Assembly: GCF_020073815.1 (NCBI RefSeq)
Contig: NZ_JAIQZJ010000011.1
Coordinates: 62,001-126,000, forward strand
DNA from: Nocardioides mangrovi
GTDB taxonomy: Bacteria > Actinomycetota > Actinomycetes > Propionibacteriales > Nocardioidaceae
DNA length: 64,000 nt
Reading direction: 5' to 3'
Shown here one piece after another: positions 25,655 through 40,287 of the stretch. Positions within the stretch are counted from its first letter, which is position 1; each line of letters begins with the position of its first letter. Both the position numbers and the translations under genes were made by a program. The notes under the pieces are model-generated. The model was not told the DNA's origin. It saw only the letters and a program-made list of their open reading frames with translations, and did no database searches.

Positions 25655-26278
25655 TCAGGAGCGCGGCGTGGCGACCACGACGACGTTGCTCAGGTAGCGC
25701 TCACCGTCCCAGTCCTCGCAGGTCACGAGAACGAGGCGGCCGGCGACGTCCTGGCTGAAGAGCCGCTCGGCGTCGTCGGCCACCCGACCCTTGGTGTAGA
25801 CCCGCTCGGTCCGCACCACGTAGGTCAGGCGGCCGTGGGTGGTGCGCACGACCACGGTGTCGCCGCGGCGGAGCTGCTCGAGGTCATCGAGGGCGCCGCC
25901 GCCGGTGTGCACGGTGTGCCCGGCGATCAGCACGCTCCCCCGGGCGTCGCCGGGCCGGGCCCCGTCGGCCCACCAGCCCAGCTCGGTCGGGTCGGACGGC
26001 GGCACCAGCGTCCGGTCCGGCGCACGGACCGGCAGCACGGGTGCCGACACGTGGAGCGCCGGGATCGTCACTCGCTCCGGGGCGCCGGGCGTGACCGGGG
26101 CGACCTCGGGCGTGGCCGTCGTCCCCGTGGTGTCGGCGCGGCCGGTGGTGCGGGCGTCCTCGGACGCGGCGGACGGGACGGCGGTGCCCGACGTACCGTC
26201 CTCCGCCCACCAGACGCCACCAGCGGCCGCCAGCACGACGCCGGCGGCCGCGAGGGCGCTACGACGGAGGTCAGGCAC
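25655..26278 (-). CDS. Class F sortase
   Basis: This 207-residue membrane-anchored sortase has one N-terminal helix (ALAAAGVVLAAAGGVWW), then a Ser/Thr/Pro-rich linker to about residue 68, then the catalytic domain. The transpeptidase residues are His121 (IAGHTVH), Cys187 (LVTCEDWDG) and Arg194 (GERYLSN). Short length and the simple fold are typical of actinobacterial class F sortases. The GTG at 26278 overlaps the stop of the upstream surface protein by 8 bases, so enzyme and probable substrate are made together. Confidence 0.9.
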   Translation of the reverse strand: MPDLRRSALAAAGVVLAAAGGVWWAEDGTSGTAVPSAASEDARTTGRADTTGTTATPEVAPVTPGAPERVTIPALHVSAPVLPVRAPDRTLVPPSDPTELGWWADGARPGDARGSVLIAGHTVHTGGGALDDLEQLRRGDTVVVRTTHGRLTYVVRTERVYTKGRVADDAERLFSQDVAGRLVLVTCEDWDGERYLSNVVVVATPRS

Positions 26279-27299
26279 GGGACCGCCGACGGGACAGCAC
26301 GGCCGCACCGGCCAGGGCGACGCCGCCTCCGAGCAGGGCCAGCGGCAGCGGCGACCGCGCCCACTCCGGAAGGGCCCCGTCCTCACCGGCGTCGACCGAC
26401 GTCGGCACGGCCGAGCTCGATCCCGCGCTGGTCCCGGCCGTGGTGCCGGTGGTGGTGTCGCTGTCCGGGCTGGCCGAGGCCGAGATCCCCGCGACGTCGC
26501 GGTCCGGGCCGGCGGAGGCGTCGGTACCGGTGCCGATGGCCTGGGCCGGGGACGGGGAGGCGGACGGCGCCGGGGTGTCGCTCGCGGTGCCGGTCGCGGT
26601 GTCGCACGGCGCGACCCAGAACACCTTGGTCTTGGTGTCGTTGCCGAGCGAGTGGGGCGTCGCGACGGTCACCTTCACGTGGTAGCCCTGCTGCGGGTGC
26701 GGGGCGCCGGTGAAGGTGAGGTCGTAGGCCTGACGTCCATCCAGGTCGGTGCCACCGCCGGCGTCATCACCGCCGACGATCACCTGGGACGGCGCCGTGC
26801 CGCCGATCGTCACGTCGCCGGTCGGCGCCTGCGGGGTGAAGGTGACGGTCGAGACGACGTCCGAGCCGGCGTCGTAGCCGAACCACTCGATGTCGAACGT
26901 GCAGCTCGGGTGCGGGTCGTTGCTCGGCGTACCGACCGCGTCGCCGGGGCCGGCGATCTTCACGGTGCCGTTGTTGCCGGGCGGGTTGTGTCCCGCGCTG
27001 CCGCCGTGCGGCGCCTTGCCGTGGCCCGGGTTGGTCGCCCCGTGCCCCTGGCCCTGGCCCTTGCCCTGGCCCTTGGCCCGGTCCGCGTCCTGCCCCTTGC
27101 CGTGGCTCTCACCGCTCTTGCCATGGTTCTCGCCGCTCTTGCCGTGGTCCTTGCCCTGGCCGTGCGCGGCACCCTGCTGCCCGGCGTGGCCGGGCGGGTC
27201 GACCGCCAGGGCCGTGCCTGCGAGCGGACCGCAGGACAGCGTCACGAGAGTGGCCACGCCCGCCAGGGCGAGGCCGGTGGCCGGCCGAGAGATCGTCAT
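26271..27299 (-). CDS. Secreted surface protein with low-complexity region and sortase-like tail
   Basis: This 342-residue protein has a signal peptide (cleavage probably after TALA, residue 32). A Gly/His/Lys/Gln-rich low-complexity region with HGKSGE-type repeats follows (about 38-105). Next come a beta-rich domain with two cysteines (about 115-240), a Ser/Thr-rich spacer, and a C-terminal helix (317-335) ending RRRSRA. Before that helix stands LPEWA (310-314) rather than LPxTG. Together with the overlapping sortase gene this suggests cell-wall attachment with a variant sorting motif. The ATG at 27299 fits a normal signal peptide. The fold of the central domain is not recognised. Confidence 0.75.
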   Translation of the reverse strand: MTISRPATGLALAGVATLVTLSCGPLAGTALAVDPPGHAGQQGAAHGQGKDHGKSGENHGKSGESHGKGQDADRAKGQGKGQGQGHGATNPGHGKAPHGGSAGHNPPGNNGTVKIAGPGDAVGTPSNDPHPSCTFDIEWFGYDAGSDVVSTVTFTPQAPTGDVTIGGTAPSQVIVGGDDAGGGTDLDGRQAYDLTFTGAPHPQQGYHVKVTVATPHSLGNDTKTKVFWVAPCDTATGTASDTPAPSASPSPAQAIGTGTDASAGPDRDVAGISASASPDSDTTTGTTAGTSAGSSSAVPTSVDAGEDGALPEWARSPLPLALLGGGVALAGAAVLSRRRSRA

Positions 27300-27546
27300 T
27301 GCACACTCCGTCGTCGAGGGCCGCACGGGCCCAGTTCCCCCACATCGCGGGGCCGGAAGACCCGGCCTCTGCAGCCCGGTGTGCCCATCGGCCCCGAGCG
27401 GCACTCAGGCGGTCTGGACCAGTCGAACGCCACTCGTAACCAGGCGTGGGTCCGGCCGTTGACCCTGCCTCGGTGCACGTTCGTCGCTGGTGGGTACGGA
27501 GAGGTCGGAGTAACCCGACGGACCCGAGGAGCAGCGGTTGAGGATC
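27300..27546. other. 247-bp divergent intergenic region
   Basis: This gap separates the leftward surface-protein operon from a small rightward gene. It contains a perfect hairpin GGCCGG-AAGAC-CCGGCC at 27351-27367 in what would be the 5' leader of the surface protein. I recognise no riboswitch core or dyad operator. A 60-codon open frame on the minus strand has no protein-like composition. Confidence 0.35.
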
Positions 27547-27694: not shown

Positions 27695-28489
27695 GTGAGG
27701 ACCTGGCTCGTCGTTGCCGTCACCGCGCTCACGGTCGCCCTGGCACCGGCCGTGGCGGCACCTCCAGCCTCCGCACGCCCCGGGCTGGACCGGCCGGATC
27801 GCAAGGAGATCGCGATGGAGCTGGTCTCCAGCGCGGAGAACTCATCGCTGCACTGGCGCCGGCAGTACCGCTACCTCGAGGACATCGGAGACGGCCGCGG
27901 CTACACCGGCGGCATCATCGGCTTCTGCTCCGGCACCGGCGACATGCTGCGCCTCGTGCGCGGCTACACCGACCGGCACCCGCACAACCCGCTCGCCCGG
28001 TTCCTGCCGGCTCTACGGAACGTCAACGGCACCGACTCCCACGCCGGCCTCGGCCGGCCCTTCCACCACGCCTGGGTGAAGGCCGCCCGCACCGACGGGT
28101 TCCGGGCCGCCCAGGACCGGGTCCGTGACCGGATGTACTTCGACCCGGCGGTCAGCCGCGCGAAGCGCGACGGGCTCCGACCGCTCGGGCAGTTCGTCTA
28201 CTACGACGCGATCGTCATGCACGGGCCGGGCAGGTCCTGGGACAGCTTCGGCGGCATCCGGCGTACGGCGATGAAGCACGCGCGCACCCCGGCCGAGGGC
28301 GGATCGGAGGTCCGCTACCTGAAGGCGTTCCTCCAGGCCCGCAAGGAGGTCATGTACTCCGAGGACGCCCACCGCGACACCTCCCGCATCGACGACGAGC
28401 AGGCCCGCTTCCTCCGCGAGCGGAACTTCAGCCTGAGCCCGCCGCTGACATGGCACACGTACGGCGACCGCTACCACATCGGCCGCTGA
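27695..28489 (+). CDS. csn: Secreted chitosanase, GH46
   Basis: This 264-residue protein is very close to the Streptomyces GH46 chitosanase. It has a signal peptide (MRTWLVVAVTALTVALAPAVAAPPASA). The catalytic Glu48 lies in MELVSSAENSS and Asp66 in EDIGDGRGYTGG, 18 residues apart as in the well-studied enzyme. The GIIGFCSGTGDML and GQFVYYDAIVMHGPG segments are also conserved. It should hydrolyse beta-1,4 bonds in chitosan outside the cell. The GTG at 27695 starts a normal signal peptide. Its 3' end enters a region of repeats and palindromes. Confidence 0.94.
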   Translation: MRTWLVVAVTALTVALAPAVAAPPASARPGLDRPDRKEIAMELVSSAENSSLHWRRQYRYLEDIGDGRGYTGGIIGFCSGTGDMLRLVRGYTDRHPHNPLARFLPALRNVNGTDSHAGLGRPFHHAWVKAARTDGFRAAQDRVRDRMYFDPAVSRAKRDGLRPLGQFVYYDAIVMHGPGRSWDSFGGIRRTAMKHARTPAEGGSEVRYLKAFLQARKEVMYSEDAHRDTSRIDDEQARFLRERNFSLSPPLTWHTYGDRYHIGR

Positions 28490-28552: not shown

Positions 28553-28592
28553 CAGGATTCACCGGTGCACCGGTGAATCCTGCACCTCTCAG
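28543..28592. terminator. 50-bp near-perfect palindrome at a convergent junction
   Basis: From 28543 to 28592 the sequence is a palindrome with a single mismatched pair (28549 with 28586). The inner 36 bp (28550-28585) are perfect; its half is GTGCAGGATTCACCGGTG. It starts inside a family B repeat and ends over the stop codon of the leftward oxidoreductase gene. It can fold into a long hairpin in either transcript, so a bidirectional terminator is the simplest role. No T-run follows on either side. Confidence 0.7.
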
Positions 28593-30994
28593 CCGAGCGG
28601 CGCCCGCAGCGAGCAGCGGACGGCGTACCGCTCCCCCGCGACGTCGACCTGGAAGCCGCCACCCGCCAGCCAATCGGAGGTCACCGGGCCGTCGTGGCGC
28701 AGGTAGCCGAGACCCACGCACGAACCGACGGTCTCGCCCCAGGCGGCGCTGGTCACCTGACCGCACGGCACCCCGTCGCGCAGCAGCAGCTCGCCGCCCC
28801 AGAGCATCGGCTCCGGCGACTCGACCACCAGCGACACCAGACGCCGCCGCGGGCCGCCCGCGGCGAGCGCCGCGCGGTGCGCCTCGAGCGCGGACCGGCC
28901 GAGGAAGTCCTTCGTACCCGACAGGGCCGTGGCGAAGACCAGGCCGGCCTCGACCGGACCGTAGTCGGGGGTCAGCTCGCGGCCGAAGGCACGGAAGCCC
29001 TTCTCCAGCCGCAGCGACTCGATGGCGGAGTAGCCCGCGTCGGTCGCGCCCGCCGCGCTGATCGCGTCGTACGCCGCAGGCGCGTCCGCGACCGGGACCA
29101 TCAGCTCCCAGCCGAGCTCGCCGACGTAGGTCATCCGGGTGGCGCGCACCTCGACGCCCGCGACGGTCACGAGCCGGCTGGTGGCAAAGGGGAAGCCCTC
29201 CTCGGACCAGTCGTCCTCCGACAGCGACGCGAGCAGGTCGCGAGAGCGCGGCCCCATCACGCCGAGCACGGCATGGTCCTCGGTGACGTCCCGCGCCGGG
29301 ACGCCGTGCCGGGCGAGCCAGTCGAGGTCGCGGATGGTCGTCGCGGAGCTCGAGACGAGCAGGAACGAGTCCGCGGCCGTGCGCGTGACGGTCAGGTCGG
29401 CCTCGTAGGTGCCGCGACCGTTGAGGAAGGGCGTGTAGACGCAGTGGCCGACCGGCACGTCGACGTCCGCGGCGCACGCCCACTGGAGCCCGGCGACGGC
29501 GTCCGGGCCGGAGACGACGTACTTCGAGAAGGACGTCTGGTCGAAGACAGCGACGTCGGAGCGGGTGGCCCGCTGCTCGGCCGCCGACGCCGCCAGCCAC
29601 GCCGGCTTGCCCCAGGAGTAGTCGACGCTAGGGGCGAAGACGTTCGGGCGCTCCCAGCCCATCCGGGTGCCGAAGGCCGCGCCCCTGGCGGCCAGCCGGT
29701 CGTGCAGCGGCGAGGTGCGCTGCGGCCGCCCGGACTCCATCTCGCGGTTCGGCCACGGGACGGCGTAGTGGAGCCCGAGCACCTCGGACACGCGGGACCG
29801 CAACCACGCGTGGTCGCCGTGGAAGGGCGCGAAGCGGCGTACGTCGACCGCGACCAGGTCGTCCTGCGGTTCCCCCGCGACGATCCACTCCGCGAGCGCG
29901 CGCCCGGCGCCGCCGGCGGAGGCGATGCCGACCGAGTTGAAGCCCGCGCCGACGAAGTAGCCCGCGAGACCGGGGGCCTCGCCGAGCAGGAACTGGTTGT
30001 CGGGCGTGAAGGACTCGGGCCCGTTGTAGAACTTCCGGATGCCGGTCTCCTCCAGGGCGGGGATCCGGACCAGCGCCTGGTCCATCAGCACCGAGAAGTG
30101 CTCCCAGTCCTCGTCGAGGAGCTGGAACTCGAAGGGGTAGGGCAGGTCGTCGGGCGAGCGCCACGGCTTGGCCTCGGGCTCGAAGCCGCCGACGACCAGG
30201 CCGCCGGTCTCCTCCTTGAAGTAGGTCCAGCCGTCCGGGTCGCGCATGATCGGCAGGTCGGGGTGCGTGCCCGCGACCGTCTCGGTCACGACGTAGAAGT
30301 GCTCGGCCGAGTGCAGCGGCAGCGTGACGCCGACCAGGTCCCCGAGTGCTTTGGCCCACTGTCCGGCGCAGTTGACGACGACCTCGGCCTCGACGTCGCC
30401 GCGGTCGGTGCGTACGCCGGTGACCCGGCGACCGGCCGGCCCGTCGATGCCGTCGAAGCCGGTCACCCGCACCCGCTCGACGATCCGGGCGCCGCGCTGC
30501 CGGGCGCCCTTGGCCAGCGACTGGGTCACGTCGGAGGGGTTGACCTTGCCGTCGCCCGGCAGCCAGATCGCGCCGAGGAGGTCGTCGACCTGCATCGGCG
30601 GCCACAGCTCCTGGGCGCGCTCCGGGCCGATCAGCTCGCACGGCATGTCGTAGGCGACGGCGTTGGCAGCGGTCCGCCGCAGCTGCACCATGCGGTCCTC
30701 GGTCCGCGCGACGATCACCCCGCCCACGTTGCGGTAGCCGGTCGCGAGGCCGGTCTCGGCCTCGAGGGCGGCGTAGAGCTCCGCGGAGTACTGCACGAGA
30801 CGGGTGCCGCTCTCCGAGGCACGGAGCGGGCCCACCAGGCCGGCCGCGTGCCAGGTGGTGCCGCACGACAGCGTCCCCTGCTCGAGGAGCAGCACGTCGC
30901 TCCAGCCGAGCTTCGTCAGGTGGTAGGCCACCGACGCCCCGATGACACCTCCGCCGACGATCACGACCCGGGCGCGGGATGGGAGGTCAACCAC
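28589..30994 (-). CDS. FAD-dependent oxidoreductase with GcvT domain (dimethylglycine/sarcosine dehydrogenase-like)
   Basis: This protein of about 801 residues resembles dimethylglycine/sarcosine dehydrogenases. The FAD-binding motif VVIVGGGVIGASVAYHL is at the N-terminus, and CGTTWHAAGLVGPLR is typical of covalently flavinylated members. The C-terminal half is a GcvT/aminomethyltransferase fold (VAVFDQTSFSKYVVSGPDA, VGELGWELMVP, SLRLEKGFRAFGRELTPDYGP). It should oxidatively demethylate an N-methylated glycine-type substrate and pass the one-carbon unit to tetrahydrofolate. The GTG at 30994 is preferred because GGAGG lies 9 bases upstream; the ATG at 31003 directly abuts that GGAGG. It is last in a three-gene operon. 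Confidence 0.87.
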   Translation of the reverse strand: MVDLPSRARVVIVGGGVIGASVAYHLTKLGWSDVLLLEQGTLSCGTTWHAAGLVGPLRASESGTRLVQYSAELYAALEAETGLATGYRNVGGVIVARTEDRMVQLRRTAANAVAYDMPCELIGPERAQELWPPMQVDDLLGAIWLPGDGKVNPSDVTQSLAKGARQRGARIVERVRVTGFDGIDGPAGRRVTGVRTDRGDVEAEVVVNCAGQWAKALGDLVGVTLPLHSAEHFYVVTETVAGTHPDLPIMRDPDGWTYFKEETGGLVVGGFEPEAKPWRSPDDLPYPFEFQLLDEDWEHFSVLMDQALVRIPALEETGIRKFYNGPESFTPDNQFLLGEAPGLAGYFVGAGFNSVGIASAGGAGRALAEWIVAGEPQDDLVAVDVRRFAPFHGDHAWLRSRVSEVLGLHYAVPWPNREMESGRPQRTSPLHDRLAARGAAFGTRMGWERPNVFAPSVDYSWGKPAWLAASAAEQRATRSDVAVFDQTSFSKYVVSGPDAVAGLQWACAADVDVPVGHCVYTPFLNGRGTYEADLTVTRTAADSFLLVSSSATTIRDLDWLARHGVPARDVTEDHAVLGVMGPRSRDLLASLSEDDWSEEGFPFATSRLVTVAGVEVRATRMTYVGELGWELMVPVADAPAAYDAISAAGATDAGYSAIESLRLEKGFRAFGRELTPDYGPVEAGLVFATALSGTKDFLGRSALEAHRAALAAGGPRRRLVSLVVESPEPMLWGGELLLRDGVPCGQVTSAAWGETVGSCVGLGYLRHDGPVTSDWLAGGGFQVDVAGERYAVRCSLRAPLG

Positions 30995-31901
30995 GAGCCA
31001 CATCCTCCAGGAGCGAGGTGAACACCGGGCCACGGAAGGTCGCCACGGCCTTCTCGAACCGCTCCATGCCCCAGCCGTGGAAGTCGTAGTCGATCGGGCT
31101 GGCGGCGGCCTGGATGAAGCCCCAGAGCGACCATCCGTACTCGCTGACCGCCATCTGCAACCGTACGCGTGCGAGGTCGGCCGCGCTCGGCGAGCCGTAG
31201 TAGGCCTCGACGTACGCCTCGACCTGCTCCGGTGTCAGGTCGCACTCGGTCGCGGTGTTGCCGAGCTCGAAGGTGGCCTCGTTGTTGCCGGAGTACTCGT
31301 AGTCGATCAGGTGGCAGGCCTCGCCGTCGTCGATGAAGTTGGCGGCCAGGAGGTCGTTGTTGCAGGGCACGGTCGGGCGCGCAGCCACCGCGAGGGCGCG
31401 CCGCGCGGCTGCCCACGAGTCGGCGTGGTCGTCGTACGTGGAAGGCAGGGCGTAGCCCTCCCGCCTGACGGTCGCGAGGTACGCCGCCTGTCGCGCGAAC
31501 ATGTCGAAGTCGCCGGTGAACCGCGGGCCGGCGTGCAGCCGTCGGGTCGCATCGGCCGCGCGGGCCAGGATCCCGGGGTCCGCGAAGTCGCCGTTGGCCA
31601 GCGCCGTGCCCGGCAGGAAGCCGATGACCAGCATCGCCAGCTCAGGGCGGTACTCGACGACCTCGGCCCCCACCCCCGCGTCGTACGCCGCGGCGGTGTT
31701 GGCCGCCTCGGCGTCACGGTCGATGCCGAGCAGGCTCGCGTCACCCTTCGACCAGCGCACGACCAGCTCGAGGCCGTCGTCGCACACCACGTGGAAGTTG
31801 CGGTTGGTCAGTCCGCCGGGCAGGTCGCCGACCCGCCAGGACCGCCCCGCCAGGCAGGCGAGGCGGTCCAGGGGCGGATCTGCCGCGGAGGCGTCGGTCA
31901 A
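30987..31901 (-). CDS. Choline/ethanolamine kinase-like phosphotransferase
   Basis: This 304-residue protein kinase-like fold is of the choline kinase type. It has GGLTNRNFHVV (nucleotide loop), CNNDLLAANFI (Brenner motif, with Asn where His is usual) and LIDYEYSGNNEATFELGN (metal-binding Asp, a choline-kinase hallmark). It is likely to phosphorylate ethanolamine, choline or a related amino alcohol. The TTG at 31901 starts MTDASAADPPL. The gene follows the permease by 6 bases and overlaps the oxidoreductase start, so it is mid-operon. Confidence 0.82.
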   Translation of the reverse strand: MTDASAADPPLDRLACLAGRSWRVGDLPGGLTNRNFHVVCDDGLELVVRWSKGDASLLGIDRDAEAANTAAAYDAGVGAEVVEYRPELAMLVIGFLPGTALANGDFADPGILARAADATRRLHAGPRFTGDFDMFARQAAYLATVRREGYALPSTYDDHADSWAAARRALAVAARPTVPCNNDLLAANFIDDGEACHLIDYEYSGNNEATFELGNTATECDLTPEQVEAYVEAYYGSPSAADLARVRLQMAVSEYGWSLWGFIQAAASPIDYDFHGWGMERFEKAVATFRGPVFTSLLEDVARG

Positions 31902-31907
31902 ACCGGG

Positions 31908-33479
31908 TCAGTCGTCGAACGCGTCGACGACGGCCTGGTCGATCGTCTGGACGGGACCGGTGAACCAGTTCCGCGCCGACACCGCCCACCAGATCGCGAG
32001 CAGCACGAGCACGCCGACGGTCATGACCGGTGCGTAGTTGACGCTCGCCCAGTCGAACTCGTCGCGCCAGGGCGCTCCGAACGGGGTGGTCGGCATCATC
32101 AGCATGACGCCGACGATGATGATCTCCACGACCGCGATCGGGTTCATCCACTTGTACTTGCTGCCGTTGTTCCAGCTGCCGACCTCGAAGCTGTCGCCGG
32201 CGCGCCAGCGCAGGAAGATCGGGATCGCGAAGGAGAAGTAGAGACCGATCACGGACACCGAGGTCACCGCGTAGAACGCGGTCGGGATGCCGTTGACGGA
32301 CTTCAGGGCCGGCAGGGTGATGATGCCGCCGACCACGGCCGCGCAGATCACCGCGTTGGCGGGCGTCCGGCTGGCGTTGACCTTGGACCACAGCTGCGAG
32401 CCCGGCACCGCCTTGTCGCGGCTGAAGGCGAACATCATCCGCGAGGTCGAGGTCAGGCACGCGGTCGCGCAGAAGAGCTGGGCGCAGGCGGAGATGAAGA
32501 GCAGCGTGCCCGCCCAGTTGGCGCCGAGCGAGGCGTCGAACACGTAGGCCACACCGCCGGCTGGGATGCTGGCGTAGTCGGGCTGTCCGTCGACCTGCGG
32601 GATCGCGAAGGTCACCGCGAGCAGCAGGACGTAGCCGCCGACGGCCGAGTAGAAGATGGACTGCCAGATGCCCCGCGCGGCCGTCCTGGCCGCACCCTGG
32701 GTCTCCTCCGAGAGGTGCACGGACGCGTCGAACCCGGTGATCGTGTACTGGGTCAGGATGAAGCCGAACGGGATGATCACGAACCAGAAGGCCGCGCCAC
32801 TGGTCGACCCGCCGTCCCACCCGGATCCGTTGAACTTGTCGGTGAAGACCTGGGAGAGACTCAGGTGCTGGTCCGGCACGAAGATCAGCACCAGGATCAG
32901 CACCGACGCGCCGACGACGTGCCACCACACCGAGACGTTGTTGATGATGGCCAGCAGGTGGCTGGAGAAGATGTTGATCAGGGTGATGAGCGCCAGGATC
33001 ATGATGAAGAAGACGAAGATCCGGTTGAGCGAGAAGGTGTCGTACCAACCCCACTCGAGGAACGTCAGCTCGAAGAAGGTCGCGCACCCGTAGGCCACCG
33101 ACGCGGTGACCGCCACGAGGCCGATCAGGTTCAGCCAGCCGGTGAAGAAGCCGGCGCGGGCGCCACCCAGCTTGGACGCCCAGTAGTAGATGCCGCCCGA
33201 GGTGGGCATCGCGGAGACCAGCTCCGACATGCAGAAGCCGATGATCAGGATGAAGACCGAGATGATCGGCCACGACCACGAGATCGAGATCGGGCCGCCG
33301 TTGCCGATGCCGGCGCCGTACGTCGTGAGACAGCCGGCCAGGATCGAGATGATCGAGAACGAGATCGCGAAGTTCGAGAAGCCGGACCAGGATCGGGAGA
33401 GCTCCTGCTTGTAGCCGAGCTTGGCGAGATGGGCTTCGTCCTCGCTGAGCGTCGCCACGGGCTCGTGTGCTTCGGGCAT
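31908..33479 (-). CDS. APC-family amino acid/amine permease
   Basis: This 523-residue permease has about 12 hydrophobic segments. It opens with ATLSEDEAHLAKLGYKQELSRSWSGFSNFAISFSIISI, a signature of the GABA/amino-acid/choline (ACT) branch of the APC superfamily. Further motifs are MPTSGGIYYWASKLGG and GFDASVHLSEETQGAARTAARGIW. The ATG at 33479 follows GGAAGG on this strand. It is first in the leftward operon and divergent from a GntR regulator. An amine or ethanolamine-type substrate fits the gene set. Confidence 0.88.
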   Translation of the reverse strand: MPEAHEPVATLSEDEAHLAKLGYKQELSRSWSGFSNFAISFSIISILAGCLTTYGAGIGNGGPISISWSWPIISVFILIIGFCMSELVSAMPTSGGIYYWASKLGGARAGFFTGWLNLIGLVAVTASVAYGCATFFELTFLEWGWYDTFSLNRIFVFFIMILALITLINIFSSHLLAIINNVSVWWHVVGASVLILVLIFVPDQHLSLSQVFTDKFNGSGWDGGSTSGAAFWFVIIPFGFILTQYTITGFDASVHLSEETQGAARTAARGIWQSIFYSAVGGYVLLLAVTFAIPQVDGQPDYASIPAGGVAYVFDASLGANWAGTLLFISACAQLFCATACLTSTSRMMFAFSRDKAVPGSQLWSKVNASRTPANAVICAAVVGGIITLPALKSVNGIPTAFYAVTSVSVIGLYFSFAIPIFLRWRAGDSFEVGSWNNGSKYKWMNPIAVVEIIIVGVMLMMPTTPFGAPWRDEFDWASVNYAPVMTVGVLVLLAIWWAVSARNWFTGPVQTIDQAVVDAFDD

Positions 33480-33564
33480 GACACACCTTCCGGGGGTGGG
33501 TTCGTGCGAATGTGAACCGGACGCTAGACCCGGCCCGATTGGGGTGTAAATACATCTAAGTAAA

Positions 33565-33586
33565 AATGGTATGAACTCAGACCATT
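33565..33586. promoter_or_regulatory. Candidate GntR/FadR operator in the divergent promoter
   Basis: AATGGT-N10-ACCATT forms 6-bp arms inside an AT-rich island (33548-33590) that stands out from the high-GC surroundings. The 160-bp gap 33480-33639 drives the APC-permease operon leftward and the GntR/GS operon rightward. TGGT/ACCA half-sites are typical for the FadR subfamily of GntR regulators, to which the adjacent gene belongs, though their usual spacing is shorter. Confidence 0.5.
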
Positions 33587-33639
33587 GACCTTGCGCCACG
33601 CATTGACTCCGTAGCCGCCGACGACGAAGGATTGATCCC

Positions 33640-34374
33640 GTGACCGCTTCCCCGCAGGACCACCTGCCGGAGGCGGTGCTGCGCCCGGTGCGCAGCCACC
33701 ACGCCTTCGAGGCCTGCGTCGAGCAGCTCGCCACGGCCATCCGGCTCGGCGTCTACCCGCTCGGCAGCACGCTGCCTCCCGAGCGCGATCTCGCGGCGAT
33801 CCTGCGCGTCTCCCGGGCCACCCTGCGCGAGGCCATGGCGGCGCTCCGGGAGGCCGGACTGGTCGAGACCAGGCGCGGCCGCGGGGGCGGCACCGTCGTC
33901 ACGCTCAAGCCGCGTACGCCGTCCGCGCGGGCCGCCGCCCGGATCTCGCCGGAGCGGCGTGAGGCCTGGCTCGACGCGCTGGAGTTCCGGCGGATCGTCG
34001 AACCCGGCGCGGCGTACCTCGCCGCTGGTGCGACGCTCGACGACGAGCAGCGACAGCGGCTCGAGAGGGCGCACGCCGAGGTGCGCGCGGCACGGAAGCC
34101 AGCCGAGCACCGGCAGGCCGACTCGCGCTTCCACCTCACCGTGGGCGCTCTCACGGGCTCCCCGCGGACGCTCGAGGCGGTGACGTCGGTCCAGGCCACG
34201 CTCCACGAGATGCTGCTGGCGATCCCGGTGCTCGAGACCAACATCAGCCACTCCGACCGCCAGCACGCCGCGCTGGTCAAGGCGATCCTCGCCGGCCACC
34301 CGGCACGAGCCCGGGTCGTGATGGAAGAACACTGCGACGACACAGCCGCGCTCCTGCGTGGCCTGGTCGGTTAG
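33640..34374 (+). CDS. GntR-family (FadR subfamily) regulator
   Basis: This 244-residue regulator has a winged helix-turn-helix domain at residues 30-90 (LGSTLPPERDLAAILRVSRATLREAMAALREAGLVETRRGRGGG). An all-helical FCD ligand-binding domain follows (LDALEFRRIVEPGAAYLA, ADSRFHLTVGALTGSPRT, HAALVKAILAGHPARARVVMEEH), with His residues suited to metal or acid binding. The GTG at 33640 has GAAGG nine bases upstream. The stop overlaps the ribosome-binding site of the ligase gene. It probably controls both divergent operons in response to a pathway amine or product. Confidence 0.9.
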   Translation: MTASPQDHLPEAVLRPVRSHHAFEACVEQLATAIRLGVYPLGSTLPPERDLAAILRVSRATLREAMAALREAGLVETRRGRGGGTVVTLKPRTPSARAAARISPERREAWLDALEFRRIVEPGAAYLAAGATLDDEQRQRLERAHAEVRAARKPAEHRQADSRFHLTVGALTGSPRTLEAVTSVQATLHEMLLAIPVLETNISHSDRQHAALVKAILAGHPARARVVMEEHCDDTAALLRGLVG

Positions 34375-34381
34375 GAGACCC

Positions 34382-35746
34382 ATGACCGAGCTGCGCAACG
34401 ACCGGCACCACACGATGCAGGGCCTGCTGGACCTGATCCAGTCGGGCGACATCGACACCGTGGTGGTGGCGTTCACGGACATGCAGGGACGGCTGCAGGG
34501 CAAGCGCCTGCACGCCCGGTACTTCGCCGACGTGGTCGTCGGGCACGGCACCGAGGGCTGCAACTACCTGCTCGCGGTCGACGTCGACATGAACACCGTC
34601 GACGGCTACGCCATCTCCTCGTGGGAGAAGGGCTACGGCGACATGGAGTTCGTCCTCGACGAGCGCACCATCCGCCGGCTGAGCCACCTCCCGGCGACCG
34701 CGATGGTGCAGTGCGACCTGGTCTGGCCGGACGGCTCGCCCGTCGTCCAGTCGCCGCGGGCGATCCTCCAGCGCCAGCTCGACCGGGTCGCCGAGCGAGG
34801 CTGCGTCGCGCTGTCGGGCACCGAGCTGGAGTTCATCGCGTTCGACACGACGTACGAGGCGGCGCACGACGCGGCCTACCGGGGGCTGACGCCGGTGAAC
34901 CAGTACAACGTCGACTACTCGATCCTCGGCACCACCCGGGTCGAGCCGCTGCTCCGCGCGATCCGCAACACCATGTACGACGCCGGTCTGGACGTCGAGG
35001 GCGCCAAGGGCGAGTGCAACTTCGGGCAGCACGAGATCGGCTTCCTCTACGCCGACGCGCTGACCACCGCCGACAACCACGTCGTCTACAAGACCGTGGC
35101 CAAGGAGATCGCGGCCGAGCAGGGCAAGGCGATCACCTTCATGGCGAAGTACAACCAGCGCGAGGGCAGCTCGTGCCACATCCATCTCTCGCTGCGCGGC
35201 GACGACGGCGACCTCGTCTTCTGGAAGGACGGCGCCCGCACCCCGCTCTACGACCACTTCGTCGCCGGGATCCTCGCGACGGCCGTCGACTTCACGCTGC
35301 TCTACGCGCCGAACATCAACTCCTACAAGCGGTTCGCCGACGGCTCGTTCGCGCCGACCACGATCGCGTGGGGCGAGGACAACCGCACCTGCGCCGTCCG
35401 GCTGGTCGGCCACGGCGCGGGTGCGCGGCTGGAGAACCGCATCCCGGGCGCGGACGTCAACCCCTACCTCGCGACCGCCGCGATGCTCGCCGGTGGCCTC
35501 TACGGCATCGAGCACGAGCTGCCGCTCGAGGACGCGCTCGTCGGCAACGCCTACCACTCCGGCAAGCCCAAGGTGCCCGCCACCATGGCCGCCGCGAGGG
35601 AGGCGTTCGCCGGCTCGGCGATCGCCCGGGCCGCCTTCGGCGACGAGGTCGTCGACCACTACGCCAACATGGCCGACGTCGAGCTCGCGGCGTACAACGC
35701 CGCGGTCACCGACTGGGAGCTCTTCCGCGGATTCGAGAGGCTGTAA
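34382..35746 (+). CDS. GlnA3/GlnA4-type gamma-glutamyl ligase (glutamine synthetase family)
   Basis: This 454-residue GS-family ligase has all catalytic landmarks: GTELEFIAFD, EGAKGECNFGQHEIGF, EGSSCHIHLSL, NINSYKRFADGSFAPTTIAWGEDNRTCAVRL and NPYLATAAML. The N-terminus (DTVVVAFTDMQGRLQGKRL) differs from that of the housekeeping enzyme. Streptomyces GlnA4 glutamylates ethanolamine and GlnA3 glutamylates polyamines. Here an aldehyde dehydrogenase, a reductase and a gamma-glutamyl hydrolase follow directly, which matches that logic. AGGAG at 34373-34377 decides the ATG at 34382. The exact amine is an inference. Confidence 0.88.
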   Translation: MTELRNDRHHTMQGLLDLIQSGDIDTVVVAFTDMQGRLQGKRLHARYFADVVVGHGTEGCNYLLAVDVDMNTVDGYAISSWEKGYGDMEFVLDERTIRRLSHLPATAMVQCDLVWPDGSPVVQSPRAILQRQLDRVAERGCVALSGTELEFIAFDTTYEAAHDAAYRGLTPVNQYNVDYSILGTTRVEPLLRAIRNTMYDAGLDVEGAKGECNFGQHEIGFLYADALTTADNHVVYKTVAKEIAAEQGKAITFMAKYNQREGSSCHIHLSLRGDDGDLVFWKDGARTPLYDHFVAGILATAVDFTLLYAPNINSYKRFADGSFAPTTIAWGEDNRTCAVRLVGHGAGARLENRIPGADVNPYLATAAMLAGGLYGIEHELPLEDALVGNAYHSGKPKVPATMAAAREAFAGSAIARAAFGDEVVDHYANMADVELAAYNAAVTDWELFRGFERL

Positions 35747-37108
35747 GTGACCGACACGTACACCGTCGTCAACCCGGCGACCGCCACTCCCCTGACCGAG
35801 GTACACCTCGCGTCGGTCGCCGAGGCGGACGCCGCGATCGAGGCCGCGCACGCGGCGTTCCCCGCCTGGCGGACGATGCCGCCCGGCGAGCGGGCCACGC
35901 TGCTGCGCCGCTTCGCCGCGGTCGTCGACGCGCACGTCGACGAGCTCGCCGAGATCGAGGTCCGCAACGCCGGGCACACGTGGGGCAACGCACGCTGGGA
36001 GGCCGGCAACGTCCGCGACTGCCTCAACTACTACGCCGGGGCGCCCGAGCGGCTCTTCGGCCGTCAGATCCCGGTGCCCGGCGGCGTGGACGTCACCTTC
36101 CACGAGCCGCTGGGCGTGGCCGGCATCATCGTGCCCTGGAACTTCCCGATGCCGATCGCCGGTTGGGGCTTCGCGCCCGCGCTGGCGGCGGGCAACACGG
36201 TCGTGCTCAAGCCCGCCGAGCTGACCCCGCTCACGGCGGTCCGGCTCGGCGAGCTCGCGCTCGAGGCGGGCCTGGCCGAGCACGTCCTCACCGTGATCCC
36301 CGGCGCCGGCCCGGTGGTCGGCGAGCGCTTCGTCACCCACCCGCTGGTGCGCAAGGTCTGCTTCACCGGCTCGACCGCGGTCGGCAAGCGGATCATGGCG
36401 GGCTGCGCCGAGCAGGTGAAGCGGGTGACCCTCGAGCTCGGCGGGAAGTCGGCCAACATCGTCTTCGCCGACACCGACCTGGCGGCGGCCGCCGCGGCCG
36501 CGCCGGGAGCAGTCTTCGACAACGCCGGCCAGGACTGCTGCGCCCGCTCGCGGATCCTGGTCGAGAGGTCGGCGTACGACGAGTTCATGACGCTGCTCCA
36601 GCCCGCGGTCGAGGCGTTCCGGGTCGCCGCGCCGGAGGGCGACGAGGCCGCCGAGATGGGGCCGCTGATCTCGGCCGCGCAGCAGGCGCGGGTCCAGGGC
36701 TACCTCGGTGAGAGCGAGGTCGCGTTCCGTGGCTCGACGCCTGGCGGCGACGGCTTCTGGGTGCCGCCGACCGTGGTGACCGTGGACGACCCGGGTGCGC
36801 GGATCTGGCGCGAGGAGGTCTTCGGCCCGGTCACCGCCGTGATGCCCTTCGACGACGAGGCCGATGCGATCGCGAAGGCCAACGACACCGAGTACGGCCT
36901 GTCCGGCTCGATCTTCACCAGCGACCTGGGCCGCGGCCTCCGCGTCGCCCGCGCCGTCGAGGCCGGCAACCTGTCGGTCAACTCGCACTCGTCGGTCCGC
37001 TACTGGACCCCGTTCGGCGGCTACAAGCAGTCCGGCCTCGGCCGGGAGCTCGGTCCGGACGCCCCGATGGCGTTCACCGAGGAGAAGAACGTCTTCATCG
37101 CCCACTAG
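35747..37108 (+). CDS. Aldehyde dehydrogenase
   Basis: This 453-residue NAD(P)+-dependent aldehyde dehydrogenase has the cofactor segment VPWNFPMPIAGWGFAPALAAGNTVVLKPAE, the general-base Glu in LELGGKSANIV and the catalytic Cys in GQDCCARSR. The C-terminus GGYKQSGLGRELG is normal. The GTG start directly follows the TAA of the ligase gene. In the proposed pathway it would oxidise a gamma-glutamylated aldehyde to the acid. N-terminal residues before TYTVVNPATA are few, so the protein is slightly short. Confidence 0.92.
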   Translation: MTDTYTVVNPATATPLTEVHLASVAEADAAIEAAHAAFPAWRTMPPGERATLLRRFAAVVDAHVDELAEIEVRNAGHTWGNARWEAGNVRDCLNYYAGAPERLFGRQIPVPGGVDVTFHEPLGVAGIIVPWNFPMPIAGWGFAPALAAGNTVVLKPAELTPLTAVRLGELALEAGLAEHVLTVIPGAGPVVGERFVTHPLVRKVCFTGSTAVGKRIMAGCAEQVKRVTLELGGKSANIVFADTDLAAAAAAAPGAVFDNAGQDCCARSRILVERSAYDEFMTLLQPAVEAFRVAAPEGDEAAEMGPLISAAQQARVQGYLGESEVAFRGSTPGGDGFWVPPTVVTVDDPGARIWREEVFGPVTAVMPFDDEADAIAKANDTEYGLSGSIFTSDLGRGLRVARAVEAGNLSVNSHSSVRYWTPFGGYKQSGLGRELGPDAPMAFTEEKNVFIAH

Positions 37109-37110
37109 AC

Positions 37111-37155
37111 GGTGGTTGAGGTCGAGGAGCGCAAGCGACGAGCCTCGAAACCACC
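37111..37155. repeat. REP-like hairpin element within the amine operon
   Basis: GGTGGTT (37111-37117) and TCGAGG (37122-37127) pair with CCTCGA (37143-37148) and AACCACC (37149-37155). The left side has a 4-base GAGG insertion and the loop is AGCGCAAGCGACGAG. I associate this sequence with a very abundant repeat in Nocardioidaceae genomes, from memory. It sits between two co-directional genes and may attenuate or process the operon transcript. Confidence 0.75.
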
Positions 37156-37173
37156 CCACGAAAGGAACATCAC

Positions 37174-37953
37174 GTGGCAGGACGCATCCAGGACCGGGTC
37201 GCGGTCGTCACCGGCGGCTGCTCGGGCATCGGTCTGGCAACGGTGCAGCGGTTCGTCGAGGAGGGCGCGAAGGTCGTCATCGGCGACATCGACGACCGGC
37301 GCGGGCACGAGGTCGTCGGCCAGCTCGGCGGCGAGAGCGTCGCGACGTACGTCCATGTCGACGTGACGTCGAAGGAGGAGGTCGACGCGCTCTTCAAGAC
37401 CGCGAAGGACACCTACGGCTCCGTCGACATCGCCTTCAACAACGCCGGCATCAGCCCGCCGGAGGACGACTCGATCCTCCACACCGACCTCGACGCGTGG
37501 CGGAAGGTGCAGGAGGTCAACCTGACCTCGGTCTACCTGTGCTGCAAGGCGGCGCTCCCCTACATGCTCGAGCAGGGCAAGGGCTCGATCATCAACACGG
37601 CGTCGTTCGTGGCGGTCATGGGCGCGGCGACGAGCCAGATCTCCTACTCCGCCTCCAAGGGCGGCGTGCTGTCGATGACCCGCGAGCTCGGCGTGCAGTT
37701 CGCCCGCCAGGGCGTGCGCGTCAACGCGCTGTGCCCCGGGCCGGTGAACACGCCGCTGCTGCAGGAGCTCTTCGCCAAGGACGCCGAGCGCGCCGCCCGC
37801 CGGCTCGTGCACGTGCCGATGGGCCGCTTCGGAGAGCCCGAGGAAATGGCGTCGGCGGTCCTCTTCCTCGCCTCCGACGACTCGTCGTTCATGACCGCCA
37901 ACACGTTCCTGGTCGACGGCGGCATCTCCGGGGCCTACGTCACGCCCCTCTGA
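37174..37953 (+). CDS. SDR-family oxidoreductase
   Basis: This 259-residue classical short-chain dehydrogenase has the cofactor motif TGGCSGIG (TGxxxGxG), NNAG, and a YSASK catalytic pair in ISYSASKGGVLSMTRELG. The C-terminus VDGGISGAYVTPL is typical of glucose-dehydrogenase/3-oxoacyl-reductase-like SDRs. The GTG at 37174 follows AAAGGAAC. In the operon it could oxidise the hydroxyl of a gamma-glutamyl-ethanolamide to the aldehyde used by the upstream aldehyde dehydrogenase. This step assignment is inference. It is preceded by the hairpin repeat and followed by an overlapping TGATG. Confidence 0.9.
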   Translation: MAGRIQDRVAVVTGGCSGIGLATVQRFVEEGAKVVIGDIDDRRGHEVVGQLGGESVATYVHVDVTSKEEVDALFKTAKDTYGSVDIAFNNAGISPPEDDSILHTDLDAWRKVQEVNLTSVYLCCKAALPYMLEQGKGSIINTASFVAVMGAATSQISYSASKGGVLSMTRELGVQFARQGVRVNALCPGPVNTPLLQELFAKDAERAARRLVHVPMGRFGEPEEMASAVLFLASDDSSFMTANTFLVDGGISGAYVTPL

Positions 37954-38666
37954 TGGCCGTTCCGCTCATCGGCCTGACCACCTACCGCGAGCAGGCGGCG
38001 TGGGGGGTGTGGGACCAGCGCGCCGACCTCCTGCCGACGCAGTACGCCGCCGCCGTCGAGGCGACCGGCGGCGTACCCGTGTTGCTCCCGCCCGCCACGC
38101 AGACCGGCGCGGCGGAGGCGGTGGTGGCCCGGCTCGACGGTCTCGTGATCAGCGGCGGGGCCGACGTCGACCCGGAGCGGTACGACGAGGCCCCGCACGC
38201 GCGCACGGCCGGCTGGCGGCCGGATCGCGACGCCTGGGAGGTCGCGCTGCTCGACGCGGCCGACGCGACCGGGCTCCCCGTCCTCGGCGTGTGCCGGGGC
38301 ATGCAGGTGATGGCGGTGCGGGCGGGCGGCGCGCTCGACCAGCACGTGCCGGACCTGGTCGGGCACGAGCAGCACTCCCCCGGCGGCGACGCCTTCGGCT
38401 CGGTCGACGTGGTCACCACCCCCGGGACCCGCGTGGCCGCCCTGGTCGGCGACAGGCTCGCCGTCAACTGCCACCACCACCAGTCGGTGCGGACCCATCC
38501 CGGCTTCGCGGCCGTGGCGCACGCCGCCGACGGGACGCTGGAGGCCATGGAGGCCGCGGGCGACCGGTTCTGCGTCGGGGTGCAGTGGCACCCGGAGACG
38601 GCGGCCGACGTCGGGCTGCTCGCGGGCCTGGTGCGCGCCGCCGCGGTCTACGCTGACACCCGATGA
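37953..38666 (+). CDS. Peptidase C26 / gamma-glutamyl hydrolase (PuuD-like)
   Basis: This 237-residue class I glutamine-amidotransferase-like hydrolase has the nucleophile elbow GVCRGMQ and the catalytic HPE in VQWHPE, with VISGGADVDPERY near residue 65. PuuD-type enzymes cleave gamma-glutamyl-GABA to glutamate and GABA. Here it would release glutamate and the carboxylate (for example glycine) at the end of the gamma-glutamyl route. The ATG overlaps the previous stop (TGATG), and its own stop overlaps the next start (ATGA), so it lies inside a tightly coupled operon. Confidence 0.9.
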   Translation: MAVPLIGLTTYREQAAWGVWDQRADLLPTQYAAAVEATGGVPVLLPPATQTGAAEAVVARLDGLVISGGADVDPERYDEAPHARTAGWRPDRDAWEVALLDAADATGLPVLGVCRGMQVMAVRAGGALDQHVPDLVGHEQHSPGGDAFGSVDVVTTPGTRVAALVGDRLAVNCHHHQSVRTHPGFAAVAHAADGTLEAMEAAGDRFCVGVQWHPETAADVGLLAGLVRAAAVYADTR

Positions 38667-39328
38667 CCCTCGTCAGTGCCCACCGGTGCCTCACCGTCCC
38701 CGACATCGAGGCGGCCATCGCGCTGGGCGCCGACTACGTCGAGTTCGACGTCCAGCGCTGCGCCGACGGCTCGCTCGTCCTGCACCACGACCCCGTCGAG
38801 GTGGCCCCACCGGGAGCCGTGCCGTACGCCGAGGCGCTCGACCTGCTCGCCGGCCGGATCCGGCTCCACCTCGACCTCAAGGTGGTCGGCGGCGAGGTGC
38901 CGATCGTCGCGGCGGCCGTCGCGCGGCTCGGGGCCGACCAGCTGCTGGTGACCACGCTCGAGGACGAGGGCGTCCGCACCGTCCGGGAGTGGGCCGACGC
39001 GCAGGGCCTCGAGCTCCTCGTCGGGCTGTCGCTCGGCCGCGGCCTGCGGGACATCCCGGTGCTGCACGGACTCCGGATCCGCCTGACCGAGCTCTTCCCG
39101 CGCCGGCGCTACCGCGACGCGGGTGCGACCGTCGTGGTCGCGCACCACTGGCTGGCGCGGCTGCAGGTGCGCCGCTTCGCGCGCCGCCGCGGCCTGCCGC
39201 TCCTCGTCTGGACCGTCGACACCCCACGCTCCCTGGCCTACTGGATGCGGCCCGGTCGCGCCTGGCTGGTGACCACCAACGAGCCGGCGCTCGCGATGCG
39301 GCTGCGGGCTGACAGACTTCCGACATGA
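38663..39328 (+). CDS. Glycerophosphodiester phosphodiesterase family protein
   Basis: This 221-residue GDPD-fold protein has the catalytic His in SAHRCLTVPDIEAAIALGADYVEFDVQ, where the common HRG is HRC. The VEFDVQ and HHDP segments supply metal ligands, and the C-terminal LLVWTVD, usual for the family, is kept. It is shorter than most GDPDs and lacks the PENT motif. Expected activity is hydrolysis of glycerophosphodiesters (such as glycerophosphoethanolamine) to glycerol 3-phosphate and an alcohol. Both ends overlap neighbours by four bases. Confidence 0.8.
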   Translation: MTLVSAHRCLTVPDIEAAIALGADYVEFDVQRCADGSLVLHHDPVEVAPPGAVPYAEALDLLAGRIRLHLDLKVVGGEVPIVAAAVARLGADQLLVTTLEDEGVRTVREWADAQGLELLVGLSLGRGLRDIPVLHGLRIRLTELFPRRRYRDAGATVVVAHHWLARLQVRRFARRRGLPLLVWTVDTPRSLAYWMRPGRAWLVTTNEPALAMRLRADRLPT

Positions 39329-40287
39329 GCAGCGGAGTCTTCGACGGCCTCGTCCCCGACGTCCTCGGCGAGCCCTACCTCGCCGAGACCATCACGCTGC
39401 CGCCCGACGACGAGGGCCCGGTCGTCGCCACGCTCGTCGTACGGCGGGCCGAGAAGCCCACCAACCGGGCGGTCCTGCACGTCCACGGCTTCTGCGACTA
39501 CTTCTTCCAGACCGACTACGCCGAGTGGTGGAACGCCCGGGGCTACGACTTCTACGCCGTCGACCTGCGCAAGTACGGCCGGTCGCTGCTCCCGCACCAG
39601 ACGCCGAACTTCGTCACCGACCTGCGTGAGCACTTCCCCGAGATCGACGCGGCCTTCCACCGCGTGGTCCACCGGGACCACCACGACCACGTCGTCATGA
39701 GCGCCCACTCGACAGGCGGCCTGATCACCTCCCTGTGGGCCAACGAGCGCAGGCCCGCGATCGCCGGCATGGCGCTCAACTCCCCCTGGCTCGACATGCA
39801 GGGCGGCGCCCTCATCCACGGCATCGGCACCACGGTCATCAAGCAGATCGGCGCCCGGCAGCCCAAGCGCGTCATCCCACGGACGGTCGGCGGCCACTAC
39901 GGCCGCAGCCTGCACATCGAGCACGACGGCGAGTGGACCTTCAACACCGACTGGAAGCCGCTCGACTCCTTCCCGGTCACCTTCGGCTGGATGCGGGCGA
40001 TCCGGCGCGGGCACGACGAGCTCCAGTCCGGCCTCGACGTCGGCTGCCCGGTGCTGGTCATGTCCTCTGCCGGCACCCGCTGGCCCAAGGAGATGGGTGA
40101 GGACGCGCACGGCTACGACATCGTGCTCGAGGTCCCGCAGATCCGGCAGTGGGCCACCGCCATCGGCGCCCACGTCACCTACGTCGCCATCCCCGGCGCC
40201 CGCCACGACGTCGTGCTCTCCCGCGCCGAGCCTCGCGAGCAGGCGTACGCCGAGATGGGTCGCTGGCTCGCGACGTACGTCGGCTGA
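39325..40287 (+). CDS. Alpha/beta hydrolase (S33/lysophospholipase-like)
   Basis: This 320-residue alpha/beta hydrolase has the oxyanion segment VLHVHGFCDYFFQTDYAEWW, the nucleophile Ser in MSAHSTGGL and the catalytic His in IPGARHDVVLSRAEP. It resembles monoacylglycerol-lipase/lysophospholipase-type proteins annotated as serine aminopeptidase S33. It has no signal peptide. Its ATG overlaps the GDPD stop (ATGA). A lipase upstream of a GDPD and an amine pathway would fit stepwise phospholipid head-group use, although this link is inference. Confidence 0.82.
   Translation: MSSGVFDGLVPDVLGEPYLAETITLPPDDEGPVVATLVVRRAEKPTNRAVLHVHGFCDYFFQTDYAEWWNARGYDFYAVDLRKYGRSLLPHQTPNFVTDLREHFPEIDAAFHRVVHRDHHDHVVMSAHSTGGLITSLWANERRPAIAGMALNSPWLDMQGGALIHGIGTTVIKQIGARQPKRVIPRTVGGHYGRSLHIEHDGEWTFNTDWKPLDSFPVTFGWMRAIRRGHDELQSGLDVGCPVLVMSSAGTRWPKEMGEDAHGYDIVLEVPQIRQWATAIGAHVTYVAIPGARHDVVLSRAEPREQAYAEMGRWLATYVG

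Follow-up and report, generated by a model that had tools for sequence, protein, structure and literature searches.

In Streptomyces coelicolor, glnA4 is needed for ethanolamine and its enzyme is specific for ethanolamine; according to the parts of that report used here, the ligase step of the GlnA4 route was assayed and its later steps were predicted (PMC6529630). A second described system, MthK/MthB, demethylates phosphocholine and not choline, with the kinase encoded beside the demethylase, and in the available passages its authors argue that related demethylases expect an acidic group, which phosphorylation would provide (PMC12155760). Here a locus of Nocardioides mangrovi is compared with both: two divergent operons at 28589-40287 of a 64,000-nucleotide stretch (positions 62,001 to 126,000 of contig NZ_JAIQZJ010000011.1) of its 5.04-Mb genome (G000), the whole stretch being called the window. 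The minus-strand operon encodes an APC-family permease, a choline/ethanolamine-kinase-like protein and an enzyme with flavin adenine dinucleotide (FAD) and GcvT parts, and the plus-strand operon a GntR/FCD regulator, a glutamine synthetase (GS)-like ligase, an aldehyde dehydrogenase (ALDH), a short-chain dehydrogenase/reductase (SDR), a C26 hydrolase, a GDPD-like protein and an alpha/beta hydrolase. The kinase and the FAD/GcvT enzyme, a relative of dimethylglycine dehydrogenase (DMGDH), form a recurrent variant for which, as for the breakdown of N-methylethanolamine by such enzymes, no description was found in the part of the open-licence literature covered by titles and abstract openings; the GlnA4 route itself is known. 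We propose, at a probability of roughly 0.38, that the pair carries out a kinase-primed oxidative demethylation, in which N-methyl- and N,N-dimethylethanolamine would be converted to phosphate esters, their methyl groups passed to tetrahydrofolate (THF), and the resulting ethanolamine turned into glycine through GlnA4.

A preliminary description, made from the sequence, had read the locus as gamma-glutamyl-amine catabolism. The eight genes that it named are all in place as long, overlapping or closely spaced open reading frames (ORFs) with clear family matches; its end at 40287 also takes in two genes that it left unnamed (P0009 and P0010), and the inverted repeat between the operons went unmentioned. 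The observation is confirmed, and its interpretation is partly supported. The principal features, with start codons chosen among the in-frame starts, are as follows.

28589-30985, minus strand: predicted FAD/GcvT demethylase P0001, 798 aa, a DMGDH relative of type A (Pfam DAO 241, FAO_M 67, GCV_T 227 and GCV_T_C 59 bits)
30987-31901, minus strand: choline/ethanolamine-kinase-like kinase P0002, 304 aa (PF01633 61.3 bits, cut-off 29; PF01636)
31908-33482, minus strand: APC-family permease P0003 (PF13520 174.6 bits)
33567-33584, no strand: 18-bp inverted repeat TGGTATGA-AC-TCAGACCA, candidate GntR operator common to both operons
33640-34374, plus strand: GntR-family regulator with an FCD domain, P0004 (PF07729, PF00392)
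34382-35746, plus strand: GlnA4-type gamma-glutamyl-amine ligase P0005, probable gamma-glutamylethanolamide synthetase (PF00120 309.6 bits)
35747-37108, plus strand: aldehyde dehydrogenase P0006, presumed gamma-glutamylacetaldehyde dehydrogenase (PF00171 510 bits)
37174-37953, plus strand: SDR dehydrogenase P0007, presumed gamma-glutamylethanolamide alcohol dehydrogenase (NCBIfam NF004713 484.7 bits, cut-off 404)
37953-38666, plus strand: Peptidase_C26/PuuD-like hydrolase P0008, presumed gamma-glutamylglycine amidohydrolase (PF07722 200 bits)

The association of the kinase with the FAD/GcvT enzyme was followed first in named genomes and then in a sample of 296 genomes of the class. A scan of the named genomes with the kinase alignment gave 504 relatives, the closest of them in Nocardioides, and the best 80 loci were kept. 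A DMGDH relative is present in all 80, in 79 of them (all but L199) with an identity of at least 54%; it lies within 300 bp of the kinase in 78, with a median gap of 26 bp, and the ligase is also present in 49. The kinase matched 54 of the sampled genomes at E 1e-60, and 46 of these matches are termed strong (E 1e-81 or better). All 46 strong-kinase genomes have a DMGDH relative somewhere (E 1e-90 or better); with three DMGDH candidates scored per genome, it is no more than 8 kb from the kinase in 38, and three further genomes show the two side by side in fetched loci (L119, L232 and L237). The preliminary description had called the presence of a kinase and a demethylase in such a pathway less usual, but they are in fact a recurrent pair with a distribution of its own.

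That distribution lies within the distribution of the ligase. The ligase was found in 44 of the 46 strong-kinase genomes versus 98 of the 250 others (Fisher 6e-14), and versus 37 of the 57 genomes that hold a DMGDH relative but no strong kinase (Fisher 9e-5). Within family f1 the kinase genomes are exactly those with a type A enzyme (6 of 25), and the ligase occurs in all six as against 5 of the 19 without the kinase (p 0.0026). The ligase lies near the kinase in 18 of the 46 genomes. Since the kinase is nested almost wholly among ligase genomes, the pair seems to depend on the ligase more than the reverse. Relatives of the permease P0003 (at least 54% identity) occur in 29 of the 100 GS neighbourhoods described below, and in 16 of the 17 that hold a kinase. 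From these patterns of co-occurrence and spacing, the kinase and the demethylase very probably work in one pathway.

Genes for the disposal of one-carbon units and serine adjoin the pair in a minority of kinase loci. Two of these, L198 and L208, share one gene order: a type B DMGDH, the kinase, an APC permease, a type A DMGDH, sdaA (L-serine ammonia-lyase) and purU (formyl-THF deformylase), the last two being recognised in L208 by NCBIfam models (sdaA 680 bits, cut-off 345; purU 339 bits, cut-off 286) and in L198 by Pfam (SDH_alpha/beta, and Formyl_trans_N with ACT). Outside the class, L245 has the order APC, kinase, DMGDH type A, sdaA, and in L254 a type B DMGDH, truncated where the contig ends, and a more remotely related kinase precede APC, GS, C26 hydrolase and ALDH. 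The sdaA and purU neighbours fit N-methyl groups leaving as methylene-THF, and it is likely, to judge from the gene families and their neighbours, that the minus-strand enzymes pass N-methyl groups to THF. One kind of HAD-family gene stands beside the kinase or the demethylase in L196, L215, L216, L218 and L244 (by Pfam in L218 and L244) and about 7 kb off in L208, and a more distantly related one is found in L103.

Several other arrangements of the pair were noted. In family f53 (L239-L243, outside the class) a single locus holds two relatives of DMGDH and, in most cases, two of the kinase, arranged as facing pairs, with a permease gene (identified by Pfam in L240), which suggests that each demethylase has its own kinase. 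A further gene of L240 that resembles a metallophosphoesterase by eye had no Pfam or NCBIfam match, and no such function is claimed for it. In L220-L225, from family f27 with genomes of 1.2-2.2 Mb, the kinase and DMGDH form a divergent pair away from the ligase. The supposed binding protein after the DMGDH of L222, by eye part of a polyamine-uptake ABC set, had no Pfam match and was not used, and no paper on ethanolamine in Nanopelagicales, our guess for the taxon of f27, was found in the open-licence literature. Weaker kinase relatives in L247-L249 adjoin an S-adenosylmethionine methyltransferase gene and a TIM-barrel gene (by Pfam in L247); this methyltransferase might act on the same kind of substrate, and these loci were not used as support. 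Kinase relatives on plasmids of Rhizobium rhizogenes and Agrobacterium (L036 and L037) lie beside a gene annotated as histidinol-phosphatase, which in L037 belongs by Pfam to the inositol-monophosphatase family and is followed by eutB and eutC. In Mycolicibacterium the kinase has CinA, CbiM-type genes and a GH2 glucosaminidase nearby, which were judged to be neighbours by lineage and not part of the pathway.

The domain architecture of P0001, DAO, FAO_M, GCV_T and GCV_T_C, is that of the dimethylglycine/sarcosine dehydrogenase family, and its best sequence matches in the PDB include human DMGDH (5l46, the best, at 422 bits) and rat DMGDH. In an alignment that includes a few proteins twice, H46, H229 and D530 are present in all 78 type A and all 40 type B rows, and Y255 in 78 and 39. 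These are residues that we take to be the FAD-linking His, the active-site His and Tyr, and the folate-site Asp (D552); D530 aligns with an Asp for which the 3gsi chain has Ala. The loop after the FAD-linking His reads GLVGPLR in P0001, GLTTYFH in DMGDH and GLVFQTN in dimethylglycine oxidase (DMGO), and the genome of N. mangrovi holds a separate relative (L259) that groups with the DMGO-like rows by this motif.

The strongest competing explanation is that P0001 is an ordinary dimethylglycine/sarcosine dehydrogenase which has only the glycine end in common with the ligase route, while the kinase has a side role, for example in the salvage of ethanolamine or choline as a phosphate ester. The PDB matches and the conserved catalytic residues speak for this, as do the glycine and one-carbon genes near some relatives. 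It leaves unexplained, however, the constant kinase partner in all 80 loci and the bias of the ligase towards kinase genomes over genomes with other DMGDH relatives, and the genome already holds L259. We regard this explanation as somewhat doubtful, though it deserves serious weight. The preliminary description had supposed that the enzyme could feed on N-methylated relatives, sarcosine and dimethylglycine, and yield glycine and one-carbon units; the one-carbon and glycine part has partial support from sdaA, purU and gcvT-gcvH in some relatives, whereas sarcosine and dimethylglycine are only one possible choice of substrate.

The AlphaFold2 model of the kinase P0002 has a mean pLDDT of 94.1, and Foldseek returned 3dxq as the best structure (TM, by query, 0.85), with the ethanolamine kinase of Plasmodium vivax (2qg7) next (0.75), followed by LicA (0.76) and choline kinases. 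D183, N188, D200 and E202, from the Brenner motif HxDxxxxN and the downstream IDxEY, are invariant in the 16-row alignment A1. The pocket segment of the kinase profile, ldfDfweWgm, resembles IDFDFINYGM of the P. vivax ethanolamine kinase more closely than IEFGYLDYAQ of human choline kinase beta, as does the longer segment seldfDfweWgmek when set against SIDFDFINYGMTR of 2qg7 and STIEFGYLDYAQSR of human choline kinase beta. We infer that the (I/L)DFDF segment separates ethanolamine from choline specificity. It could instead be that the kinase phosphorylates choline and that the FAD/GcvT enzyme serves a choline/betaine route, with ethanolamine as a parallel substrate under the same regulator. 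The kinase fold and Pfam family do take in choline kinases and LicA, and the W..W positions that line up with choline kinase are invariant, but the pocket segment leans the other way, no choline- or betaine-specific enzyme was recognised among the ten locus genes, and betaine-aldehyde dehydrogenase models fell below their cut-offs for P0006. To our knowledge, moreover, FAD/GcvT enzymes oxidise tertiary and secondary amines and not quaternary ones. A choline route is accordingly held to be improbable.

The ligase operon was compared with S. coelicolor GlnA4. The closest solved relatives of P0005 are PDB 11zs (399.5 bits) and 5dm3 (387.9 bits), and P0005 keeps, at a constant offset of -8, all 13 of the catalytic residues compared, as listed for S. 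coelicolor in the part of PMC6529630 drawn on here (E156, E158, E219, E226, E269, G270, H274, H276, R325, R348, E359, R361 and F331). These serve metal, glutamate and nucleotide, and F331 is the flap residue that replaces the flap glutamate of ammonia-using GS. The same 13 are kept in all 101 aligned GS rows, in which P0005 is present twice. From matches in 142 of the 296 genomes, 100 GS neighbourhoods (99 genomes) were fetched, mostly best first; relatives of the ALDH and SDR accompany GS in 92 of them, and the C26 hydrolase as well in 82. An arrangement kept to this extent, like that of the kinase with its DMGDH-like partner, is beyond chance. The reverse-transcription primer for S. coelicolor glnA4, used as an orthology tag, had an exact match in none of 237 loci, so orthology rests on residues and gene order.

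The gamma-glutamylation of GlnA4 type proposed in the preliminary description is upheld by the residues and by the gene set of SCO1610-1615, whereas putrescine, which it had also named, is not favoured: a putrescine or polyamine reading of P0005 was rejected at 170.7 bits for the NCBIfam PuuA model NF045547, against a cut-off of 650. The ligase might instead take isopropanolamine, putrescine or another monoamine. All 13 residues are present in GS relatives L134-L137 (51-53% identity), which have no ALDH or SDR neighbours, so the residues mark the ligase type and not the amine by themselves, and the amine-pocket positions that depend on the model used differ in part. The gene set, on the other hand, is that of the experimentally studied ethanolamine clusters, genes for glycine disposal stand beside the cluster in some relatives, and the gamma-glutamylputrescine model is far below its cut-off, which together make another amine an unlikely substrate. 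We have high confidence that the plus-strand operon represents a known route, an ethanolamine cluster of the ordinary GlnA4 type.

In the actinobacterial work, as far as its text was available, assays covered no more than the first step of the GlnA4 route. Independent support for glycine as the end product comes from neighbours of the ligase cluster in relatives, sdaA and gcvT-gcvH. The genes gcvT, gcvH and sdaA come after the ligase cluster in L080, L084 and L095 (gcvT and gcvH supported by Pfam in L080 and L084), and in L052 the regulator, GS, ALDH, SDR, C26 hydrolase and sdaA genes follow one another on one strand, with sdaA, supported by Pfam, directly after the hydrolase. In a genome-wide check sdaA was present in 92 of the 296 genomes. 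Both sdaA and GS occur in 63 genomes, and in 10 of these sdaA is no more than 10 kb away from the best GS match, where 0.31 would be expected.

Between the operons, at 33567-33584, TGGTATGAACTCAGACCA forms the 18-bp inverted repeat, with one mismatch between its arms. With up to two mismatches allowed, the 5.04-Mb genome has no other such site, and with up to three the window gave two matches (one site, both strands) against 0.11 expected. Among 45 homologous intergenic regions of Nocardioides-type loci, 22 have the TGGT..ACCA form and 37 have GGTATGAA, while 2.1 Mb of base-shuffled loci, scanned on one strand, gave no match to the repeat. The repeat is also present at loci without the kinase pair (L039 and L042). 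Its position and conservation suggest that both operons are under one candidate operator, which would be bound by the GntR protein.

Known substrates of the DMGDH family carry an acidic group, which an N-methylated ethanolamine would gain on phosphorylation. The DAO-family enzymes PbfC and PbfD accept N-methyl-aminoethylphosphonate, according to the part of PMC10590968 used here, and kinase priming is proposed from this, the acidic substrates and the MthK/MthB precedent taken together. In the proposed pathway the APC permease would import one or more N-methylated ethanolamines, and the kinase would phosphorylate the hydroxyl to give an acidic N-methylated amine that a DMGDH relative could bind. 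The FAD part of P0001 would then oxidise an N-methyl group, and the GcvT part would transfer it to THF as 5,10-methylene-THF. The demethylated (phospho)ethanolamine would lose its phosphate, either to a phosphatase or through transfer within the kinase, and enter the plus-strand module. There the ligase (34382-35746) would make gamma-glutamylethanolamide from ethanolamine, glutamate and ATP, the SDR and ALDH would oxidise its alcohol to gamma-glutamylglycine, and the C26 hydrolase would free glycine and glutamate. MthK returned phosphate from the product to a new substrate in the portion of PMC12155760 consulted, so that a phosphatase could be dispensable.

The whole two-module explanation, whose substrates, fluxes and regulator binding are read from sequence families, residues, co-occurrence, gene order and the repeat, is in our judgement evenly balanced. 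The same can be said of the choice of an N-methylated ethanolamine over an amino acid as the substrate, and that the demethylase works on the phosphorylated form is put forward tentatively.

A number of points weigh against the proposed pathway. The catalytic residues of true dimethylglycine enzymes are retained in P0001, which makes an amino acid a possible substrate, and sdaA and purU would suit sarcosine or dimethylglycine equally. Arg55 of the FAD loop was dropped as a phosphate-binding mark, being present in 111 of 118 fetched-locus rows and also in 5 of 20 relatives elsewhere. The Brenner-motif His is Asn in 15 of the 16 kinase rows, and the best curated model for P0002 is GntI, below its cut-off (171 of 357 bits). 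No phosphatase gene is present in the window locus, and the HAD gene is beside the pair in only five fetched kinase loci. In five strong-kinase genomes (G203, G238, G280, G247 and G157) no DMGDH was seen beside the kinase, some of them having short contigs and three candidates being scored in each. The ligase is present but away from the kinase in 26 of the 46 genomes, with none listed in two, and the association counts were corrected for phylogeny only within family f1. At the amine pocket, P0005 has V73 for D81, N61 for D69 and I181 for V189 of GlnA4 and keeps only D186 (as D178); PMC6529630, in the part used, gives D81/D69 and V189/D186 as dependent on the model. Eight of the 10 cases of sdaA near GS come from family f18 and the others from f32 and f42, so independent events number about three. 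Finally, no copy of the operator was found at L219, a separate kinase locus with a GntR/UTRA gene upstream; with the repeat present at L039 and L042, shared control belongs to this arrangement and not to the pair everywhere.

Two further genes end the plus-strand operon, each sharing four bases with the gene before it.

38663-39328, plus strand: short GDPD-like protein P0009 (PF03009 52.7 bits, the best stretch covering residues 11-44 only)
39325-40287, plus strand: alpha/beta hydrolase P0010, serine-aminopeptidase/lysophospholipase-like (PF12146 62.9 bits)

Counting this locus itself, relatives of P0009 occur in 6 and relatives of P0010 in 7 of the 100 GS neighbourhoods. Just past the FAD/GcvT gene, at 27695-28489 on the plus strand, lies a gene for a GH46 family protein (PF01374 311 bits), which we take to be a chitosanase family, and at 26271-27404 on the minus strand there is a 377-aa ORF with Gly/His/Lys repeats and a hydrophobic C-terminal stretch that has no Pfam match. 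A second GS-like gene of the window, at about 13541-14641 on the plus strand (G000:C37:75541-76641), is 32% identical to P0005, and the genome has five GS-like matches in total.

Among described systems, S. coelicolor SCO1610-1615 and its streptomycete relatives share with this locus the ligase residues, SDR, ALDH, regulator, glutamine-amidotransferase-type hydrolase and, in the relatives, the permease. The kinase and the FAD/GcvT enzyme are not in the figure legend published for that cluster (PMC6529630, in the part used), whereas here they face the ligase operon across a candidate operator common to both, and the GDPD-like and alpha/beta hydrolase genes are extra. The ethanolamine operon of Phaeobacter MED193 likewise has a ligase, alcohol and aldehyde dehydrogenases and a gamma-glutamylglycine amidohydrolase, but it differs in its TRAP transporter and RpiR regulator, and no kinase is given in the operon legend (PMC10132767, in the part used). 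According to the same part of that source, the DMGDH of Phaeobacter (MED193_19144), whose locus tag is distant, rose on phosphocholine and in the absence of phosphate but did not rise on phosphoethanolamine. DMGDH and DMGO resemble P0001 in their DAO, FAO_M and GcvT domains, the FAD-linking His, the aligned His and Tyr and, for DMGO, the folate-domain Asp; the solved enzymes are nevertheless distant (422 and 342 bits by phmmer), and P0001 is tied to a kinase.

The closest parallel for the pair itself is MthK/MthB of Eubacterium limosum, in which a choline-kinase-family enzyme also stands beside a THF-linked demethylase and the amino alcohol is made acidic first; MthB, however, belongs to the MttB family of cobalamin-linked methyltransferases and methylates THF, whereas P0001 is a flavoprotein with a GcvT domain and has a ligase pathway downstream (PMC12155760, from the sections available). 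Since P0001 is of the DAO/GcvT type and not of the corrinoid MttB superfamily, it may act like MthK/MthB without being a member of that system. The pair may extend the GlnA4 route to N-methylated ethanolamines, which are products of phospholipid head groups, and link it to one-carbon supply. If the proposal is right, the kinase-primed pathway would be a flavin-based counterpart, spread across several actinobacterial families, of the anaerobic MthK/MthB system, and phosphorylation would have been put to use twice, separately, to make an amino alcohol resemble an acidic amine before demethylation.

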